In this document: positions 2,087-11,982 of the stretch, in pieces
How positions within the stretch are numbered: position 1 is the stretch's first letter
Layout of the letters: every line of letters begins with the position of its first letter
From: Actinomycetospora sp. TBRC 11914
Lineage (GTDB): Bacteria > Actinomycetota > Actinomycetes > Mycobacteriales > Pseudonocardiaceae
NCBI RefSeq assembly: GCF_012933465.1
Contig: NZ_JABBND010000008.1
Location: 1-64,000, forward strand
Direction of reading: 5' to 3'
Length of the DNA stretch: 64,000 bases
Translations under genes and position numbers: made by a program
The notes under the pieces: model-generated
What the model was told of the DNA's origin: nothing
Seen by the model: only the letters and a program-made list of their open reading frames with translations
The model's database searches: none

Positions 2087-2881
2087 TCAGAGACCGAGCT
2101 CGTCGCGCCAGACCTCGGTCTTCGTCCGGTAGCCGTCGGCGACGTGCAGGGCCCGGTCGTCGAGGAGCCGCTCGAACGCGGCGGCGGCGGCCGACACCTC
2201 GTGGGGGTCGCAGTGGGTGGAGAGCTCCACCATCTCCCGGCCGCTGGGGAAGCGGAAGTGCTCGAGGTCCGCGCGCAGACCCGGCGCGGCGGCGGTGACC
2301 TTGACGCGGTGGACGACCAGGGGCCCGTGCACCGTCAGCTCCTTGAGGGCGCCGTCGTCGACGGGCTCGTGGCCGCCGCGCAGCGCCCAGGCGCGCTGTG
2401 CGGTGGAGAGCAGCTCACGGGGGTCGAAGGCGCGCGCGACCACGTGGGAGGCCTCGCCGGGGTCGACCTCGCGGCGGACCTCGATGTCCTGCCAGACCTC
2501 CCCGGGGACCACGTCGAGCTCGACCCGCACGCCCCGGGGGGCGGTGCGGTCGGGCGTCGTGCCGGTGCGGCGCGCCGAGACCGCGAGGTCGTAGCGGCCG
2601 CGGGCCCGGCGGCGCAGGCGGATCTCGACGCCGGCCCGGAGCAGGTCCAGTGCCTCGGTGTCGAGCAGGTAGGTCCGGCGCTCGCTCCACGTCGGCGAGG
2701 GGCGGCCGGTCAGCACCTCCGCGGCGCGGTCGGCCGGGGTCCGGAGCAGCGCCTTCAGCTCGACGCTGTCGGCGTGGGCGCCCCCCGTGCAGAGCCGGGC
2801 GAGCGCCTCGGGCGGTCCGAACCTCGGCACGTCCTCTCGACCTCCCGCCGGGCGGCGCGGAATCCCCGGCGACGACGCCAC
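2087..2881 (-). CDS. CYTH-like (triphosphate tunnel) protein
   Basis: A 264-residue protein whose body resembles CYTH/triphosphate-tunnel proteins: VELKALL near residue 41, alternating basic and acidic strands such as GVEIRLRRRARG and RVELDVVPGEVW, and a C-terminal FERLLDDRALHVADGY. The usual N-terminal ExExK is only partly present, because the first Glu is Ser. CYTH enzymes hydrolyse organic or inorganic triphosphates with a metal, but activity here is unproven. It converges on the SMP-30 gene with a 7-bp gap. The start could be internal, since the first 35 residues are poorly structured. Confidence 0.55.
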   Translation of the reverse strand: MASSPGIPRRPAGGREDVPRFGPPEALARLCTGGAHADSVELKALLRTPADRAAEVLTGRPSPTWSERRTYLLDTEALDLLRAGVEIRLRRRARGRYDLAVSARRTGTTPDRTAPRGVRVELDVVPGEVWQDIEVRREVDPGEASHVVARAFDPRELLSTAQRAWALRGGHEPVDDGALKELTVHGPLVVHRVKVTAAAPGLRADLEHFRFPSGREMVELSTHCDPHEVSAAAAAFERLLDDRALHVADGYRTKTEVWRDELGL

Positions 2882-3356: not shown

Positions 3357-3821
3357 ATGACGGCCACCGCAGGTGATCGAGACACCCAGCTCCACGAAGC
3401 TGGGCTCGACGGGCAGAACCGGACGGCACTGGGCCGGCTGCTCGGCACCGGGAACGTCGGACACGCCGAGGAGGGCTCCGACGGCGTCATGCGGGCGACG
3501 GTCCGCATCCCGGAGGACGAACTGATCTTCGACCCGTCGATCCTCGTCTTCCCGCACGGGGGCGAGGTCGAGCTGACGCTCATCAACGACGACAAGAACA
3601 CCCACTGTGCAGTGCTGCCCAACAACGGTGATCCCAAGATCATCTGGTTGGTCAACCACTCCAAGGGCATCGCCCGCCTGAACCTGGGCGGACCGGGGAC
3701 CTACTACTACGGCTCCACCACCGGCAACGACGAGGGCCGCGGGCTGACCGCCGCGCTGGTCTTCGGTGGCGAGGTGCCCGACTCGGCCAAGATCGACCGT
3801 CCCCCGCAGCCGCGCCCGTAA
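3357..3821 (+). CDS. PQQ-associated cupredoxin-like protein (MSMEG_3727-type)
   Basis: A 154-residue protein resembling the actinobacterial family annotated as MSMEG_3727-type PQQ-associated protein, which occurs beside PQQ alcohol dehydrogenases. The second half reads as a beta-sandwich, with INDDKNTHCAVLPNNGD and LNLGGPGTYYYG reminiscent of a cupredoxin copper site (His/Cys). Copper binding is inference. No signal peptide is present. The ATG at 3357 follows AGAGGAGGGA; an overlapping ATG at 3350 is in another frame. It ends 12 bp before the dehydrogenase, so it may be its electron acceptor or partner. Confidence 0.75.
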   Translation: MTATAGDRDTQLHEAGLDGQNRTALGRLLGTGNVGHAEEGSDGVMRATVRIPEDELIFDPSILVFPHGGEVELTLINDDKNTHCAVLPNNGDPKIIWLVNHSKGIARLNLGGPGTYYYGSTTGNDEGRGLTAALVFGGEVPDSAKIDRPPQPRP

Positions 3822-3833
3822 GGAGGAGCACCC

Positions 3834-5522
3834 ATGACCGACTACGTGGACGCCGGCGAGGCCGTCCCCCACAAGACGCTCAGCGCCACCAAGGGCAGCG
3901 CCCCGGCCACCAGCGACGTCAACTACGAGCGCATCCAGAACGCCCGCTCGGAGCCGGAGAACTGGCTCACCTACTACGGCACCTACGACGGCCAGCGGCA
4001 CAGCGCGCTCGACCAGATCAACCGCGAGAACGTCAAGCGCCTCTCGCCCGCGTGGGTCTTCCAGGCCGGCTCGGCGGGTCTGCACTCCGGCGCGTCGACC
4101 TACTCGTTCGAGTCCTCACCGCTCGTCGTCGAGGGCGTCATGTACGTCTCCGGCCCCGAGGGCAAGTTGTGGGCGATCGACGCCACCACCGGTGAGGAGC
4201 TCTGGCGCTACAAGCACGCCTCGCCGTACGACGTCTCGCTGTGCTGCGGCAACGTCAACCGCGGCGTGGCCGTGGGCCACGGCAAGGTGTACCTGTACAC
4301 GCTCAACGCCCACCTCATCGCGCTCGACGCCCAGACCGGTGACCTCGTCTTCGACGTCGTCAACGGCGACGTGCGCGCCGGCGAGAGCGGCACCGTCGCG
4401 CCGCTGATCGTCAAGGACAAGGTCATCGTCGGGAGCTCCGGCGGGGAGTTCGGGCTCCGCGGCCACCTCGACGCCTTCGACGCGCAGACCGGCGAGCGCC
4501 AGTGGCGCTGCTACACGATCCCGAAGCCGGGCGAGCCCGGGTCGGAGACGTGGCCGGACGACGGCGAGGCGTGGCAGCGCGGCGGCGCGAACTGCTGGGT
4601 GACACCGACGTACGACCCGGAGCTCGAGCTGCTGTACCAGGGCACGGGCAACCCGGCGCCGGACTTCGACGGCGGCGTGCGCCCCGGCGACAACCTCTAC
4701 ACCGACTCGACCATCGCGGTCGACGTGAACACCGGCGAGATCCGCTGGCACTACCAGTTCACGCCCCACGACCTGTGGGACTACGACTCGACGATGGAGA
4801 ACGTCCTGTTCGACGCGCCCGACGGGCGCAAGCTGCTCGCGCACGCGGACAAGAACGGGTACTTCTTCGTCCTCGACCGGACCAACGGCGAGCTGGTCCG
4901 GGTCTTCCCGTTCGTCGACCGGATCACCTGGGGCGAGATCACGCCCGACGGCAAGGTGACGCCGAAGGTCTACCCGGACGAGGAAGGCGTCCCCGTCCAC
5001 TTCTGGCCCGGTCCGGCCGGCGGCAAGGAATGGACGCACATGGCGTACAGCCCGCGCACCGGGCTGATCTACGTTCCCGTCCAGGAGGTCGGGGCGACGG
5101 CCACCCGCCGTCGTCGTGAGTTCAAGGAGAGCATCCCCTACTGGGGTGCGGGCGTGGCCGTCGACCTCGACGACCACTACGGGTTCGTGGCCGCCATCGA
5201 CCCGTTGACCGGCGAGGAGAAGTGGCGCTGGCGCAACGAGTACCCGATGTGCTCCTCGACCCTCACCACGGGCGGCGGCCTGGTCTTCCAGGGGACGCCG
5301 ACGGGCGAGTTCGTCGCGCTCGACGAGGAGACCGGCGAGAAGCTGTGGTCGTTCCAGTGCGGCAGCGGGCACCACAGCAGCCCGTCGACGTACAGCGTGG
5401 ACGGCCGCCAGTACGTCGCGGTGCCCACCGGCTGGGGCGGCTGGATCGAGGGCTTCCTCCCCGGTCTGCTCGGCGCCGCCGCGGGTGACGCCCTGTTCGT
5501 GTTCGCGCTGCCGGAAGCCTGA
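3834..5522 (+). CDS. PQQ-dependent methanol/ethanol-type alcohol dehydrogenase
   Basis: A 562-residue quinoprotein propeller protein that oxidises primary alcohols with PQQ. Visible features: the vicinal Cys137-Cys138, Glu205 (GGEFGLRG), Asn273 (GTGNPAP), catalytic Asp316 in PHDLWDYDST, Lys340, and propeller repeats such as ALDAQTGD. Two residues after Asp316 is Asp318, the extra metal ligand of lanthanide enzymes (XoxF/PedH); calcium MxaF has Ala there. No signal peptide is visible, although most relatives are periplasmic. AAGGAGG at 3822-3828 fixes the ATG. There is no cytochrome domain, and pqqA follows. Confidence 0.93.
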   Translation: MTDYVDAGEAVPHKTLSATKGSAPATSDVNYERIQNARSEPENWLTYYGTYDGQRHSALDQINRENVKRLSPAWVFQAGSAGLHSGASTYSFESSPLVVEGVMYVSGPEGKLWAIDATTGEELWRYKHASPYDVSLCCGNVNRGVAVGHGKVYLYTLNAHLIALDAQTGDLVFDVVNGDVRAGESGTVAPLIVKDKVIVGSSGGEFGLRGHLDAFDAQTGERQWRCYTIPKPGEPGSETWPDDGEAWQRGGANCWVTPTYDPELELLYQGTGNPAPDFDGGVRPGDNLYTDSTIAVDVNTGEIRWHYQFTPHDLWDYDSTMENVLFDAPDGRKLLAHADKNGYFFVLDRTNGELVRVFPFVDRITWGEITPDGKVTPKVYPDEEGVPVHFWPGPAGGKEWTHMAYSPRTGLIYVPVQEVGATATRRRREFKESIPYWGAGVAVDLDDHYGFVAAIDPLTGEEKWRWRNEYPMCSSTLTTGGGLVFQGTPTGEFVALDEETGEKLWSFQCGSGHHSSPSTYSVDGRQYVAVPTGWGGWIEGFLPGLLGAAAGDALFVFALPEA

Positions 5523-5576
5523 CGGCGGCCGGACGCACGATCCGCATCACCGTCGTTCACGAGGAGGTGAAAGTCC

Positions 5577-5666
5577 GTGGAGCTCCACGTGTGGGAGGCC
5601 CCCGAGTTCGAGGAGATCGGGGTCGCTCCTGAGGTGACGATGTACGTCGCACAGATGGACGACTGA
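5577..5666 (+). CDS. pqqA: PqqA, peptide precursor of PQQ
   Basis: A 29-residue peptide from GTG at 5577 with a strong GAGGAGGTGA site at 5561-5570. It has the PqqA pattern: N-terminal Trp, PEFEEI, then PEVTMY, giving the Glu19-x3-Tyr23 pair that PqqE cross-links to build PQQ. It follows the PQQ dehydrogenase by 54 bp and precedes a hairpin, so it is probably co-transcribed. No pqqB, C, D or E gene is in the window, so maturation enzymes must lie elsewhere. It is short enough to be missed by gene callers. Confidence 0.9.
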   Translation: MELHVWEAPEFEEIGVAPEVTMYVAQMDD

Positions 5667-5680
5667 TCGAGAACGCGCGG

Positions 5681-5709
5681 AGGGGCGCCGGACTGGTTCC
5701 GGCGCCCCT
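5681..5709 (+). terminator. strong hairpin after pqqA
   Basis: Perfect 11-bp arms (5681-5691 and 5699-5709) with a 7-base loop start 14 bases after the pqqA stop. It probably ends the dehydrogenase-pqqA transcript, or lowers expression of the rubredoxin pair. The pairing is seen directly; termination is inferred. Confidence 0.75.
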
Positions 5710-5770
5710 TCGCGGTGTTCGGCACCGATACCGTGCACCGTGCCCCTGACCGAGGATCTCCGGAGGCGAC

Positions 5771-5986
5771 ATGACCGTCGAGCAGACCGAGGCCAGACCG
5801 CAGGCCACGCGTTGGCTCTGCGAGATGTGCGGATTCATCTACGATCCTGAGGAGGGTGATCCCGACAGCGGTATCCCGCCCGGGACGCCTTTCGAGGACA
5901 TCCCCGACGACTGGATGTGCCCGATCTGCGGAGCCGAGAAGTCGGACTTCCGTGCGCTGGAGCCGGGAGAGTTCCCGGAGATGTGA
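5771..5986 (+). CDS. rubredoxin
   Basis: A 71-residue rubredoxin: a one-iron electron carrier with CEMCG and [11 protein letters not shown] supplying the four Cys ligands, and the typical [28 protein letters not shown] core. The ATG follows CGGAGGCGAC. It ends 13 bp before the R2-like diiron gene, so the natural inference is that it feeds electrons to that enzyme, as rubredoxins do for alkane and other diiron oxygenases. A link to the upstream PQQ dehydrogenase is possible but untested. Confidence 0.95.
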
Positions 5987-5999
5987 GGGATCTGTACAG

Positions 6000-6764
6000 A
6001 TGATCACCGGGTACGGCCACTTCGCACAGCTCGCCGAATCACTGCAGTGGGACGAGACCGCGATCGACCTCTCGACGGACGTCGAGGCCTGGGCGAAGCT
6101 CGAGGACGAGGAGAACGAGCAGATCCTCGGGCTCCTCGCCGGCTTCGTCGTCGGGGAGACGTCCGTGGCGACGCACCTCAAGAACTTCCAGACCGCCGCG
6201 AGCACCGACGATGCGATGGCGAAGGTGTTCGAGGCCCAGGCCCGCGACGAGGCCCGCCACGCCCGGTTCTTCGACCGCGTCGTCCGCGAGGTCGTGGAGG
6301 TCCCGGGCGAGAACCTCACCGAGCGCATGGACGCGCTGCGCGACCGGGTGAGCCCCGACCTCGTCGAGCTGTTCGAGGAGCGGCTCCCGGCCATGGCGGA
6401 GCGGGTCGCGCAGGACGCGCAGAACCTCACCGCGGCGGTCGGGCTGTACCACATGATCCTCGAGGGGGTCGTGCTGACCGCGGGCCAGCACGCGCTGCTC
6501 GAGACGCTCGAGGGCTGCTCGATCAACATGCCGGGGATGCGCAAGGGGATGGAGCTCGTCCTGCGCGACGAGCGCTGGCACATCGGCTTCGGGTCCCGGG
6601 TCATCCAGAGCGCCGATGTCGTCGACGACGAGATGGAGGAGCTGCTGACGCAGGGCACCAAGGCGGCGTCCGCCTGGGGCGACCTCATCTCCGCGAAGTC
6701 CGTCGACAAGGTCGACCAGCTGCACCGCCGGCGCCTCAAGTCCGTCGGCATCAAGTTCTGGTAG
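6000..6764 (+). CDS. R2-like diiron ferritin-superfamily protein
   Basis: A 254-residue helical protein with the carboxylate metal site of ribonucleotide-reductase R2 and ferritin-like oxidases. Candidate ligands are Glu53, Glu84 and His87 (DEARH), Glu155 (LEGVV), Glu191 and His194 (DERWH). The Glu53-Glu84 gap of 31 equals that in class I R2. The residue where R2 carries its radical Tyr is Phe91, as in class Ic R2. It is shorter than R2 (about 320-375 residues), and no large RNR subunit is nearby, so an oxidase or hydroxylase paired with rubredoxin is more likely. Upstream in-frame codons overlap the rubredoxin gene and are not favoured. Confidence 0.8.
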   Translation: MITGYGHFAQLAESLQWDETAIDLSTDVEAWAKLEDEENEQILGLLAGFVVGETSVATHLKNFQTAASTDDAMAKVFEAQARDEARHARFFDRVVREVVEVPGENLTERMDALRDRVSPDLVELFEERLPAMAERVAQDAQNLTAAVGLYHMILEGVVLTAGQHALLETLEGCSINMPGMRKGMELVLRDERWHIGFGSRVIQSADVVDDEMEELLTQGTKAASAWGDLISAKSVDKVDQLHRRRLKSVGIKFW

Positions 6765-10637: not shown

Positions 10638-10773
10638 GGCGTGCTGGAGTTCGGGATCGTCCTGGGCGCGCGGGGCTCGGGATGCGGGGCGGTCCCGAGG
10701 GGTGAACGGTCTCCACCCCGTCTCGACCCGTCGGTGGAGGCGCCGGCGCGTTCCGGGGGACGACGATGGCGGC

Positions 10774-11982
10774 GTGCCCGACACCGCCACCGACCTGCCC
10801 CGCCTCCCCTTCCCGACCCCCGACCCGCTCGGCCTCGCCCCGGCGCTCGGCCCGCTGCGGGAGCGCTCACCGGTCACCCGGGTGCGCACGCGCGTCGGCG
10901 ACGAGGCCTGGCTGGTCACCGGGTACGCGCCGGTGCGGGCGCTGCTCGCCGACCCCTGGCTGGGGCGTTCGCACCCCGAGCCCGAGAAGGCGGCGCGGCT
11001 GCACGACGGGATGCTCCTGGGCGGCCCGATGGGCGACCACGAGCACGAACGGGCCTCCCACCAGCGGATGCGCCGGCTGCTCGCCCCGGCGTTCTCCGCG
11101 CGCCGGATGCGACGCCTGGCCGACCACGTCGGCGAGCTGGTCGACGGCCTGCTCGACGACCTGCTCGCCCGCGAGCGGCCGGCCGACCTCCACGCCGTGC
11201 TGGCCGAGCCGCTGCCCGCCCTGGTCATCTGCGAGCTCCTCGGGGTGCCCTACGCCGACCGGGACGCCTTCCGCGCCTGGTCCGGTCAGGCCGCCGCGAT
11301 CGACGACGCCGGGACGAGCCGCGCGGGCATCACCGCCCTCGGGCGCTACGTGGCCGGTCTGGTCGACGCGAAGCGGCGCGAGCCCGCCGAGGACGTCCTC
11401 TCCGACCTCGTGGCGGCCCAGCAGGACGACCCGGAGCTCTCCGACCTGGTGGTGGCGGGGATCGCGACCGGCCTGCTCTTCGCCGGCCACGAGACCACGA
11501 TGACCCGGATCGACGCCGGCGTCCTGCGCCTCTTCCCGCACGACGGCCGGTCCCCCGGCCTCCCGACCGATCCCGACGACTTGGCCCGCACCGTCGAGGA
11601 GATCCTGCGGCTCCCGGTGCCCGGCGGCGGACGGGGCGGCGGGCTGATCCGCTACGCGCACGAGGAGGTCGTCGTCGACGGCGTCGTCATCGCCCCCGGC
11701 GACGCCGTGGTGCTCTCGATCGGCGCGGCCAACCAGGACCCGGCGGTGTTCGACGCGCCGGCCGAGCTCGACGGGGCCCGCCGCGAGAACCCACACCTGG
11801 GCTTCGGGCACGGGGTGCACCACTGCGTCGGGGCGAGCCTCGCGCGGGTGGAGCTGCGGGCGGTGTTCACCGCGCTGCCCGCGCGGGTCCCGACGCTCCG
11901 GGTCGCGGTGCCGGCCGACGAGCTCCGGCTGCGGCCCGACAGCCTGACCGGGGGCCTGCTGGAGCTGCCGGTCAGCTGGTGA
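10774..11982 (+). CDS. cytochrome P450
   Basis: A 402-residue soluble P450. The I-helix oxygen motif is AGHETT (residues 237-242), ExxR is EEILR (275-279), and the haem loop FGHGVHHCVG places the ligand at Cys351. The haem HEHERASHQRMRR C-helix signature is near 89-101. The GTG at 10774 gives a normal length; an upstream in-frame ATG adds a basic tail. No ferredoxin or reductase is adjacent, so partners are elsewhere. It overlaps the convergent TetR gene by 11 bp. Substrate unknown. Confidence 0.93.
   Translation: MPDTATDLPRLPFPTPDPLGLAPALGPLRERSPVTRVRTRVGDEAWLVTGYAPVRALLADPWLGRSHPEPEKAARLHDGMLLGGPMGDHEHERASHQRMRRLLAPAFSARRMRRLADHVGELVDGLLDDLLARERPADLHAVLAEPLPALVICELLGVPYADRDAFRAWSGQAAAIDDAGTSRAGITALGRYVAGLVDAKRREPAEDVLSDLVAAQQDDPELSDLVVAGIATGLLFAGHETTMTRIDAGVLRLFPHDGRSPGLPTDPDDLARTVEEILRLPVPGGGRGGGLIRYAHEEVVVDGVVIAPGDAVVLSIGAANQDPAVFDAPAELDGARRENPHLGFGHGVHHCVGASLARVELRAVFTALPARVPTLRVAVPADELRLRPDSLTGGLLELPVSW

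Follow-up and report, generated by a model that had tools for sequence, protein, structure and literature searches.

Why a PQQ-dependent alcohol dehydrogenase and the precursor peptide of its cofactor should be encoded beside a rubredoxin and an R2-like dimetal protein, and apart from the enzymes that make PQQ, is the question raised by the locus considered here. It lies in a stretch of 64,000 nucleotides of Actinomycetospora sp. TBRC 11914, hereafter the window, which begins at base 1 of its contig (C62), such that 3.3 kb of upstream sequence are visible. Judged from sequence comparisons within the family Pseudonocardiaceae, the five genes are inherited together and are best explained as half of a PQQ-alcohol oxidation module that is split in this genome, and we hold it very probable that the rubredoxin and the R2-like protein serve this dehydrogenase subtype, or its cofactor, in some capacity. 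The earlier note had placed five genes on one strand between 3357 and 6764, and profile matches confirmed each of them at its position. The features are as follows:

2087..2881, minus strand: divergent CYTH-like gene (CYTH at E 0.096 only, below the cut-off)
3357..3821, plus strand: MSMEG_3727-type PQQ-associated protein, 154 aa (TIGR04339, 258.2 bits, cut-off 75; PF23509, 247.9, cut-off 27)
3834..5522, plus strand: PQQ-dependent alcohol dehydrogenase of the methanol/ethanol family, 562 aa (TIGR03075, 633 bits, cut-off 480)
5577..5666, plus strand: pqqA precursor peptide, 29 aa, GTG start (PF08042, 29.6, cut-off 21.1; TIGR02107, 30.9, cut-off 20)
5671..5720, plus strand: strong GC hairpin immediately 3' of pqqA (-47.9 kcal/mol, z -4.9)
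5771..5986, plus strand: rubredoxin, 71 aa (PF00301, 86.9, cut-off 23; NF045768, 93, cut-off 90)
6000..6764, plus strand: R2lox-like dimetal protein of a separate subfamily, 254 aa (PF00268, 60.9 bits, cut-off 33.6)

The dehydrogenase belongs to TIGR03075 by its score above the curated cut-off, its vicinal Cys pair and its catalytic Asp. The vicinal pair, Cys137-Cys138, and the motif Asp316-x-Asp318 are conserved in all dehydrogenase rows over 450 aa that were aligned. Its closest solved chain is the quinoprotein ethanol dehydrogenase 6zcv, which we take to be the lanthanide-dependent PedH, and with which it shares the PQQ propeller, the vicinal Cys pair and the catalytic-site Asp-x-Asp; it differs in having no recognisable signal peptide and in its partner, the MSMEG_3727-type protein. 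The earlier description of this partner as cupredoxin-like holds for the fold and fails for the last ligand loop. An AF2 model (pLDDT 74) found auracyanin 6kol as its top Foldseek match (E 4.3e-06, TM 0.51 by query), together with other cupredoxins. A type-1 copper ligand loop consists of Cys, His and Met. From the GPG at residues 112-114 to residue 138 Cys occurs in 0/37 rows, while the last loop carries His in one and Met in nine of the 37, never together, and the protein thus lacks such a loop. The motif GNDEGRG is invariant.

The pqqA gene is the only one with a product above the cut-off that was found when the draft genome was searched. Its translation, which matches the curated PqqA models, contains EVTMY and hence the Glu-x3-Tyr motif at which PqqA is cross-linked. 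As the earlier note had remarked, the genes that normally follow are absent, and tblastn with PqqB, C, D and E gave no match in the 64 kb window; the proposed search elsewhere in the genome located pqqBCDE on another contig (C56, locus L013), without an adjoining pqqA. Because pqqBCDE lie there and no other PqqA exceeded the cut-off, the peptide encoded at this locus should serve PqqBCDE in trans. The idea that the precursor is placed with its user enzyme rather than its makers does not extend to a design principle, since 23 of the 34 R2 loci read hold the MSMEG_3727-type protein, the PQQ dehydrogenase, the rubredoxin, the R2-like protein and pqqBCDE in one cluster. Apart from the window genome, the split arrangement was seen in A. 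endophytica (L077) and in a metagenome-assembled genome (L093), for which pqqE was not found, and because single clusters prevail among the R2 loci the split looks derived and secondary. The PQQ locus MSMEG_3721-3727 of M. smegmatis, as named in PMC6529628, shares the MSMEG_3727 family protein, the PQQ dehydrogenase and PQQ biosynthesis genes. R2-less genomes fetched from the order mostly show the arrangement 3727-dehydrogenase-pqqA-pqqBCDE, without the rubredoxin-R2 pair.

Between pqqA and the rubredoxin gene the earlier note had placed a terminator. The strong hairpin is present, but it has no T run and gave no intrinsic-terminator match, and an operon end at this point was rejected for lack of the T run. 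Similar hairpins occur 3' of pqqA in relatives whose clusters run on downstream, and for this reason the hairpin need not mark a transcript boundary. Over 73 nt, 36 of 38 pqqA copies from R2-containing loci folded with -37 kcal/mol or below; weaker folds were obtained for the first of the L066 copies (-27.9) and for L085 (-26.1). In a comparison with shuffled sequences, made for eight hairpins only, seven gave z values from -2.7 to -6.2 and L085 gave +0.36. No such long stem was seen where pqqB directly follows pqqA in the R2-less loci L018, L020, L021 and L022.

Co-occurrence speaks for a functional connection. When the dehydrogenase search and the R2 profile search were run separately on the same 297 Pseudonocardiaceae genomes, the R2 subfamily was detected in 31, exactly those that carry a dehydrogenase at least 84% identical to the one in the window, while it was absent from the 60 genomes with other PQQ dehydrogenases only (at most 76% identity). 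These 31 genomes span four genera and are related, and do not represent 31 independent events; eight of them additionally carry a dehydrogenase of another type. In the dehydrogenase tree, the 30 R2-linked rows form one clade (100/100) that excludes all 33 R2-less rows. The tie between the rubredoxin-R2 pair and the PQQ genes, proposed earlier from neighbourhood, was borne out, with 30 of 32 R2 places lying 546-5258 bp from an MSMEG_3727-type gene on the same contig; regular occurrence of the pair away from PQQ genes, named at the time as the observation that would speak against one system, was not seen in the 297 genomes. One of the two exceptions (G706) has its R2 gene on a different contig from the MSMEG_3727 gene in an assembly of 730 contigs. 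The other (G823, locus L074) is a second R2 copy with pqqA just upstream, and no dehydrogenase or rubredoxin was found in the 20.8 kb fetched around it. The rubredoxin gene adjoins R2 in 32 of 34 loci; in P. hydrocarbonoxydans (L086) none was found in the 1.6 kb before R2, a stretch that reaches the contig start. The pair is kept in or beside the cluster despite several gene orders.

Members of the R2 subfamily are confined to one family except for L083, a metagenome-assembled genome with a record titled Nocardioidaceae, and no further member was detected in 396 genomes of the phylum. Other families of the phylum hold more distant R2 relatives, scoring 75-134 bits, and 20 fetched loci of these relatives (3.5-13 kb) gave no match to the rubredoxin or PQQ queries.

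The R2-like protein itself represents a short, R2lox-like subfamily and is a small metal-dependent enzyme that probably uses oxygen. The six metal ligands of the R2 superfamily, E53, E84, H87, E155, E191 and H194, are invariant in all 30 members. Its AF2 model (pLDDT 89.8) finds R2lox structures as top PDB matches, and it matches R2loxI of G. kaustophilus (4hr0) at 4.6e-12, with 23% identity for the model. It falls far below the cut-off of NF006202, the best NCBIfam R2lox model (85.6 bits against 315), and below those for the ribonucleotide-diphosphate reductase beta subunit (at most 31.4 bits against at least 237). In the R2-like tree the subfamily forms a clade of its own with 100/100 support and a long stem (2.18), with the tree rooted by midpoint only and subject to a long-branch warning. 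With the R2lox proteins of G. kaustophilus (4hr0), M. tuberculosis (3ee4) and Sulfolobus acidocaldarius (6qrz) it shares the ferritin-like fold, the six carboxylate/His ligands and the Val and Tyr of the cross-link. It is shorter, however (254 aa against about 300), and two fixed residues are specific to the subfamily: L159, at E155+4, in place of Ala, and W193, just before the last His, in place of Arg. Furthermore, unlike R2lox, it comes with a dedicated rubredoxin and a PQQ cluster. This rubredoxin, which exceeds the curated cut-offs and carries two CxxC motifs (CEMC and CPIC), is the only one found in a search of the draft genome.

Our preferred explanation, which is plausible and which we advance tentatively, is that an R2lox-like oxygenase, supplied with electrons by the rubredoxin, forms the alcohol that this dehydrogenase subtype goes on to oxidise. 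At a diiron or Mn/Fe site the R2 protein would activate O2, the rubredoxin acting as electron donor, and could hydroxylate a non-polar substrate (an alkane, an ether or similar). The resulting alcohol would be oxidised by the neighbouring dehydrogenase using PQQ, itself presumably made from the locally encoded PqqA by the PqqBCDE encoded elsewhere in the genome. Support comes from R2loxI of G. kaustophilus, reported in PMC10867098 as an alkane monooxygenase clustered with alcohol and aldehyde dehydrogenases. Both loci place an R2lox-type protein beside an alcohol dehydrogenase; the G. kaustophilus cluster differs in having aldehyde dehydrogenases and beta-oxidation genes, and the word rubredoxin is absent from the main text of that paper, in contrast to the dedicated rubredoxin found here.

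The strongest competitor, though rather unlikely in our estimation, is that the pair is an accessory oxidase of PQQ biosynthesis or PqqA tailoring, which might aid tyrosine hydroxylation, oxidise a late intermediate or yield a PQQ variant exclusive to this dehydrogenase subtype. Most Actinomycetospora loci have the pair between pqqA and pqqB, ten of them between two pqqA copies, an arrangement that also fits cofactor biosynthesis and to that extent tells against an oxygenase feeding the dehydrogenase. The same applies to the extra L074 copy of R2, directly behind pqqA and dehydrogenase-free in the stretch fetched. At L026 the R2 stop codon overlaps the pqqB start, and the distance correlations (R2-dehydrogenase 0.62, R2-PqqE 0.79) do not favour the dehydrogenase over PqqE as the partner of R2. 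Against tailoring, the split genomes (the window genome and L077) keep the pair with the dehydrogenase and pqqA and not with pqqBCDE, and in R2-less relatives the core of pqqA is very similar and pqqBCDE are present in most loci fetched. Moreover, PqqB and PqqC are each encoded in one frame in 24 of the 25 R2-containing loci that hold them, and a substitution of R2 for a broken PqqB was rejected on this account. Functionally important motifs such as NASPD and DAExDH are kept in the 95% consensus of 36 PqqB and 35 PqqC rows, pooled from R2-containing and R2-less loci, of which eight sequences of each were read. Because the frames are open and the family consensus is kept, R2 need not, on present comparisons, replace any known PQQ step. 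The window genome's own PqqB (L013) reads DLLE where the consensus is DGxE. At L030 both PqqB and PqqC are split over two frames and at L084 stops fall within the PqqE match; unless these are sequencing errors, an R2-containing genome need not retain sound PQQ genes, a point against the preferred reading.

Quinoproteins are generally known as periplasmic enzymes. No hydrophobic leader was found in the dehydrogenase (65 homologues) or its MSMEG_3727 partner (68 homologues) by a simple proxy, not a trained predictor, applied to the 60 residues that follow the aligned start; the best 15-residue mean for the dehydrogenase was 1.0, against 2.25 for one exported control. Since neither shows a leader, the two proteins seem unable to reach cytochrome c in the periplasm. 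For a conserved quinoprotein class that has no recognisable signal peptide, it must be asked where the electrons go, and the pair could conceivably be the answer, as a soluble alternative to cytochrome c along which electrons pass from PQQH2 via rubredoxin and R2 to O2. The strict co-occurrence with one dehydrogenase subtype and the sole rubredoxin would agree with such a sink, which we nonetheless consider unlikely: the 60 genomes with only other dehydrogenases, likewise leaderless where fetched, manage without such a pair. R2lox-type sites, moreover, are not known as efficient terminal oxidases. A further reading, quite unlikely in our view, is a closed cytosolic circuit in which dehydrogenase electrons would return via the dedicated rubredoxin to the R2 oxygenase. 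If it were true, the oxygenase and quinoprotein would form a self-fuelling pair that converts hydrocarbon and O2 to aldehyde and water, free of NAD(P)H after priming.

It is improbable that R2 protects or modifies the module, by removing O2 or peroxide or by oxidising a residue of the dehydrogenase, of the MSMEG_3727 partner or of itself. Self-oxidation could take the form of an R2lox-style ether cross-link. According to PMC6060897, R2lox modifies itself, and its cross-link joins a Val three residues after the first Glu to a Tyr five residues before the third. The corresponding V56 and Y150 are invariant in 30/30 members, and V and Y likewise stand at these positions in 42 of the 47 other R2-like sequences of the alignment. 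A dedicated rubredoxin, however, suggests multiple turnover rather than a single self-modification, and dehydrogenase types with and without R2 show no difference in their vicinal Cys pair or D-x-D. Hitchhiking, whereby a single insertion brought the pair close to an ancestral PQQ cluster, where chance kept it, would fit the near-confinement to one family and the monophyly of the R2-linked dehydrogenases, but is already disfavoured and very improbable given the exact 31/31 co-occurrence over four genera, the several gene orders across which the pair is kept and the adjacency of rubredoxin and R2 in 32 of 34 loci.

The substrate of R2lox has been called a long-standing question, with alkane hydroxylation reported for one member, in PMC10867098. 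The association with one dehydrogenase is a clue to the role of the poorly understood superfamily to which the R2-like enzyme belongs, and since both the candidate electron donor and the partner dehydrogenase of this subfamily are fixed, its chemistry becomes addressable as a defined three- or four-protein system. Neither the module of rubredoxin, R2 and PQQ dehydrogenase nor an R2lox-like protein acting inside a PQQ system was found described among the matches listed from the open-access literature, from which most subscription papers are missing.

Two minor observations may be added. The single TGA noted inside several distant dehydrogenases was considered as a possible selenocysteine codon and, in the four cases checked (L029, L142, L143 and L144), proved to be the gene's own stop codon. 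Many relatives have the CYTH-like gene on the upstream side of their MSMEG_3727 gene, and homologues occupy the same place in Actinomycetospora and in three Pseudonocardia-type loci (L086, L088 and L150).

The five genes that the earlier note had placed on one strand within 3357-6764 were all found there, each passing at least one curated cut-off:

3357-3821, + strand, MSMEG_3727-family protein
3834-5522, + strand, PQQ alcohol dehydrogenase
5577-5666, + strand, pqqA
5771-5986, + strand, rubredoxin
6000-6764, + strand, R2-like dimetal protein (R2)

The genome is a 6.52 Mb draft in 63 contigs with a stated completeness of 97%, and only 3.3 kb are visible upstream because the 64-kb window opens at base 1 of its contig (C62). 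The named relatives closest in the locus genes belong to Actinomycetospora.

The rubredoxin and R2 belong to the PQQ module. One set of 297 Pseudonocardiaceae genomes was searched with TIGR04339, the curated model for MSMEG_3727-type proteins (90 genomes above cut-off), with an R2 profile (31 genomes at E 1e-50 or better, all among the 91 with an MSMEG_3727 match) and with the dehydrogenase (91 genomes at E 1e-100 or better). A dehydrogenase copy at 84-100% identity occurs in 31 genomes, all other copies showing 76% or less, and these are the same 31 genomes that carry R2; 60 genomes have only lower-identity matches and lack R2, eight carry both dehydrogenase kinds, and one (G779) has a match at 45% only. 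Fisher's test gave p = 9e-43 for the co-occurrence but, since the genomes are related, the identity gap and the identity of the two sets weigh more. In a dehydrogenase tree of 63 rows, from which sequences shorter than 450 aa were omitted (including those of the contig-cut loci L081 and L083) and for which L149 and L094 are identical, all 30 R2-linked rows formed one clade (100/100) that included none of the 33 others. At the level of sequence, these results demonstrate co-inheritance of R2 with one dehydrogenase subtype. An earlier order-wide draw yielded an R2 orthologue in 3/298 genomes (303 bits or more; next match 64), all three also carrying the rubredoxin and PQQ genes, and in a 396-genome phylum draw the best R2 profile match beyond the window itself reached 134 bits, against 483 for the window.

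Scanning named genomes with the R2 alignment produced 29 loci which, together with the window, L026, L030, L150 and L151, gave 34 R2 loci for reading; L149 was not counted, its dehydrogenase matching that of L094 exactly. The synteny that the earlier note had proposed to compare is conserved in content, with rubredoxin adjoining R2 in 32 loci (exceptions L074 and L086) and the MSMEG_3727 and dehydrogenase genes sharing the locus in 31 (exceptions L074, L082 and L084, R2 lying 0.4 kb or less from a contig end in the last two), but not in order, for which five arrangements were found. Actinomycetospora shows 3727-DH-pqqA-Rub-R2-(pqqA2)-BCDE, most Pseudonocardia-type loci carry Rub-R2 before 3727-DH-pqqA-BCDE, Saccharopolyspora (L094) has 3727-DH-Rub-R2-pqqA-BCDE, L151 has 3727-DH-pqqA-BCDE-Rub-R2, and the cluster is split in the window genome and A. 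endophytica (L077), with the same left half in a MAG (L093). R2 and pqqB overlap in L026, at the stop of the former and the start of the latter. A pair regularly lying away from PQQ genes was not seen, 30 of the 32 R2 places in the 297 genomes being 546-5258 bp from an MSMEG_3727 gene.

The pqqBCDE genes sought by the earlier note are present on another contig (C56), beside which no pqqA was found. The window pqqA was the sole PqqA above cut-off in a search of its own draft genome and should, therefore, serve these genes in trans. The idea that pqqA sits with its user rather than its makers holds for this genome but not generally, since in 23 of the 34 loci PqqB, C, D and E are encoded together with the MSMEG_3727 protein, dehydrogenase, rubredoxin and R2. 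The split is common to A. endophytica, with pqqE on a different contig, and the MAG yielded no pqqE over cut-off in its 3.5 Mb. Among 27 genomes compared, L093 being left out, PqqC and PqqE are nearest to L077 and the L076/L080 group (0.86-0.92), whereas R2 (0.81) and the MSMEG_3727 protein (0.90) are nearest to L066, which belongs to the other Actinomycetospora group, such that the cluster looks mosaic.

Several further genes accompany these loci. Two differing pqqA copies flank Rub-R2 in ten Actinomycetospora loci (L066-L073, L075, L078), and a variant PqqA with the core CAEATGYFYR or CAEVTGYFYR (L029, L032, L033, L034) has exchanger, dehydrogenase or PqqE-like genes in its vicinity. A prolyl-oligopeptidase-type peptidase, a candidate PqqA-processing protease, is encoded upstream of Rub-R2 at L088:7109-9214 (assigned by PF00326) and, by tblastn, in L030, L081, L085, L087, L089-L091 and L150. 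A sodium/calcium exchanger gene, which may supply or remove the dehydrogenase metal, adjoins pqqE in the genome's own pqqBCDE locus (L013:8553-9689, +) and recurs near PQQ genes, with and without R2, in L014, L015, L018-L020, L022, L025-L027, L030-L034, L066-L076, L078-L080, L088-L092, L094 and others (PF01699 for L013 and L088, tblastn for the rest). A divergently oriented methylenetetrahydrofolate-reductase-like gene (L013:12855-13946, +; PF02219 and PF12225) adjoins pqqB.

The six metal ligands and a Val/Tyr pair (V56 and Y150) are invariant in 30/30 R2 members, and this pair forms the ether cross-link in R2lox according to PMC6060897. The AlphaFold model (pLDDT 89.8) has R2lox proteins as its best structural matches. 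By the curated models it does not belong to R2lox, scoring 85.6 bits against a cut-off of 315, and R2 members form a separate clade in a midpoint-rooted tree subject to long branches. Leu159 and Trp193 are fixed in them, whereas each of the 47 further R2-like proteins in the alignment has Ala and Arg, respectively, at these positions. Leu159 corresponds by position to A171 (E167 + 4) of G. kaustophilus R2lox, a residue that we infer to line the ligand channel and, given that basis, a different substrate for the subfamily is a guess. R2-like proteins of 418-493 aa, lengths that depend on the start-codon rule applied, occur in other actinobacterial families (L114, L115, L118, L120, L126, L127, L129-L132); L114 alone was read, and its additional residues lie at the C-terminus.

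The best-supported reading, to which we give somewhat less than an even chance, is that the rubredoxin would bring electrons to an R2 oxygenase supplying an alcohol for oxidation by this dehydrogenase subtype; reaction, electron-flow direction and substrate are all putative. In PMC10867098, G. kaustophilus R2loxI is reported as an alkane monooxygenase clustered with alcohol and aldehyde dehydrogenases, a precedent for this reading. Cofactor tailoring by Rub-R2 is a good deal less probable, although the position of the pair between pqqA and pqqB in Actinomycetospora suits it and counts against the oxygenase, as does an additional R2 copy in A. callitridis (L074:9801-10765), immediately preceded by pqqA and followed by an exchanger gene, with neither rubredoxin nor dehydrogenase in the 20.8 kb fetched. 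A core role in PQQ biosynthesis is unlikely, since PqqB and PqqC frames are open in 24 of the 25 R2 loci holding them and relatives lacking R2 have PQQ genes. In the exception, L030 (12346-13240 and 13272-13953), two frames are needed to read PqqB and likewise PqqC, while stops interrupt the match to PqqE at L084:3931-4530, either decay or sequencing error. An electron sink is improbable, and a closed circuit, with the rubredoxin reduced by the dehydrogenase, slightly more so. The locus parts are each of known kind; no description of the R2 subfamily, or of its strict association with a single quinoprotein subtype, was found among the papers listed in searches of open-access literature. PMC6529628 names the M. 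smegmatis MSMEG_3721-3727 PQQ locus, and PMC10811679 and PMC10401708, used as background only, treat other folds.

No hydrophobic leader was detected among 65 dehydrogenase or 68 MSMEG_3727 homologues using a Kyte-Doolittle proxy, rather than a trained predictor, that covered the 60 residues following the aligned start and was set against a single exported control. The dehydrogenase vicinal Cys pair and the Asp-x-Asp known from lanthanide-type enzymes are kept alike in types with and without R2; eight alignment columns fully separate the two, column 329 being all gaps in rows lacking R2. The MSMEG_3727 protein has a predicted cupredoxin fold (model pLDDT only 74), and the stretch expected to hold the last copper ligands carries Cys in 0/37 rows, His in one and Met in nine. 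A lone paralogue, 79-86% identical, occurs in same-genus genomes (L028:10011-10463, L152, L153) with no dehydrogenase match in the stretch fetched. Downstream in the window, an ORF at 10702-11982 (+) carries FGHGVHHCVG, which we take to be a cytochrome P450-like heme motif.
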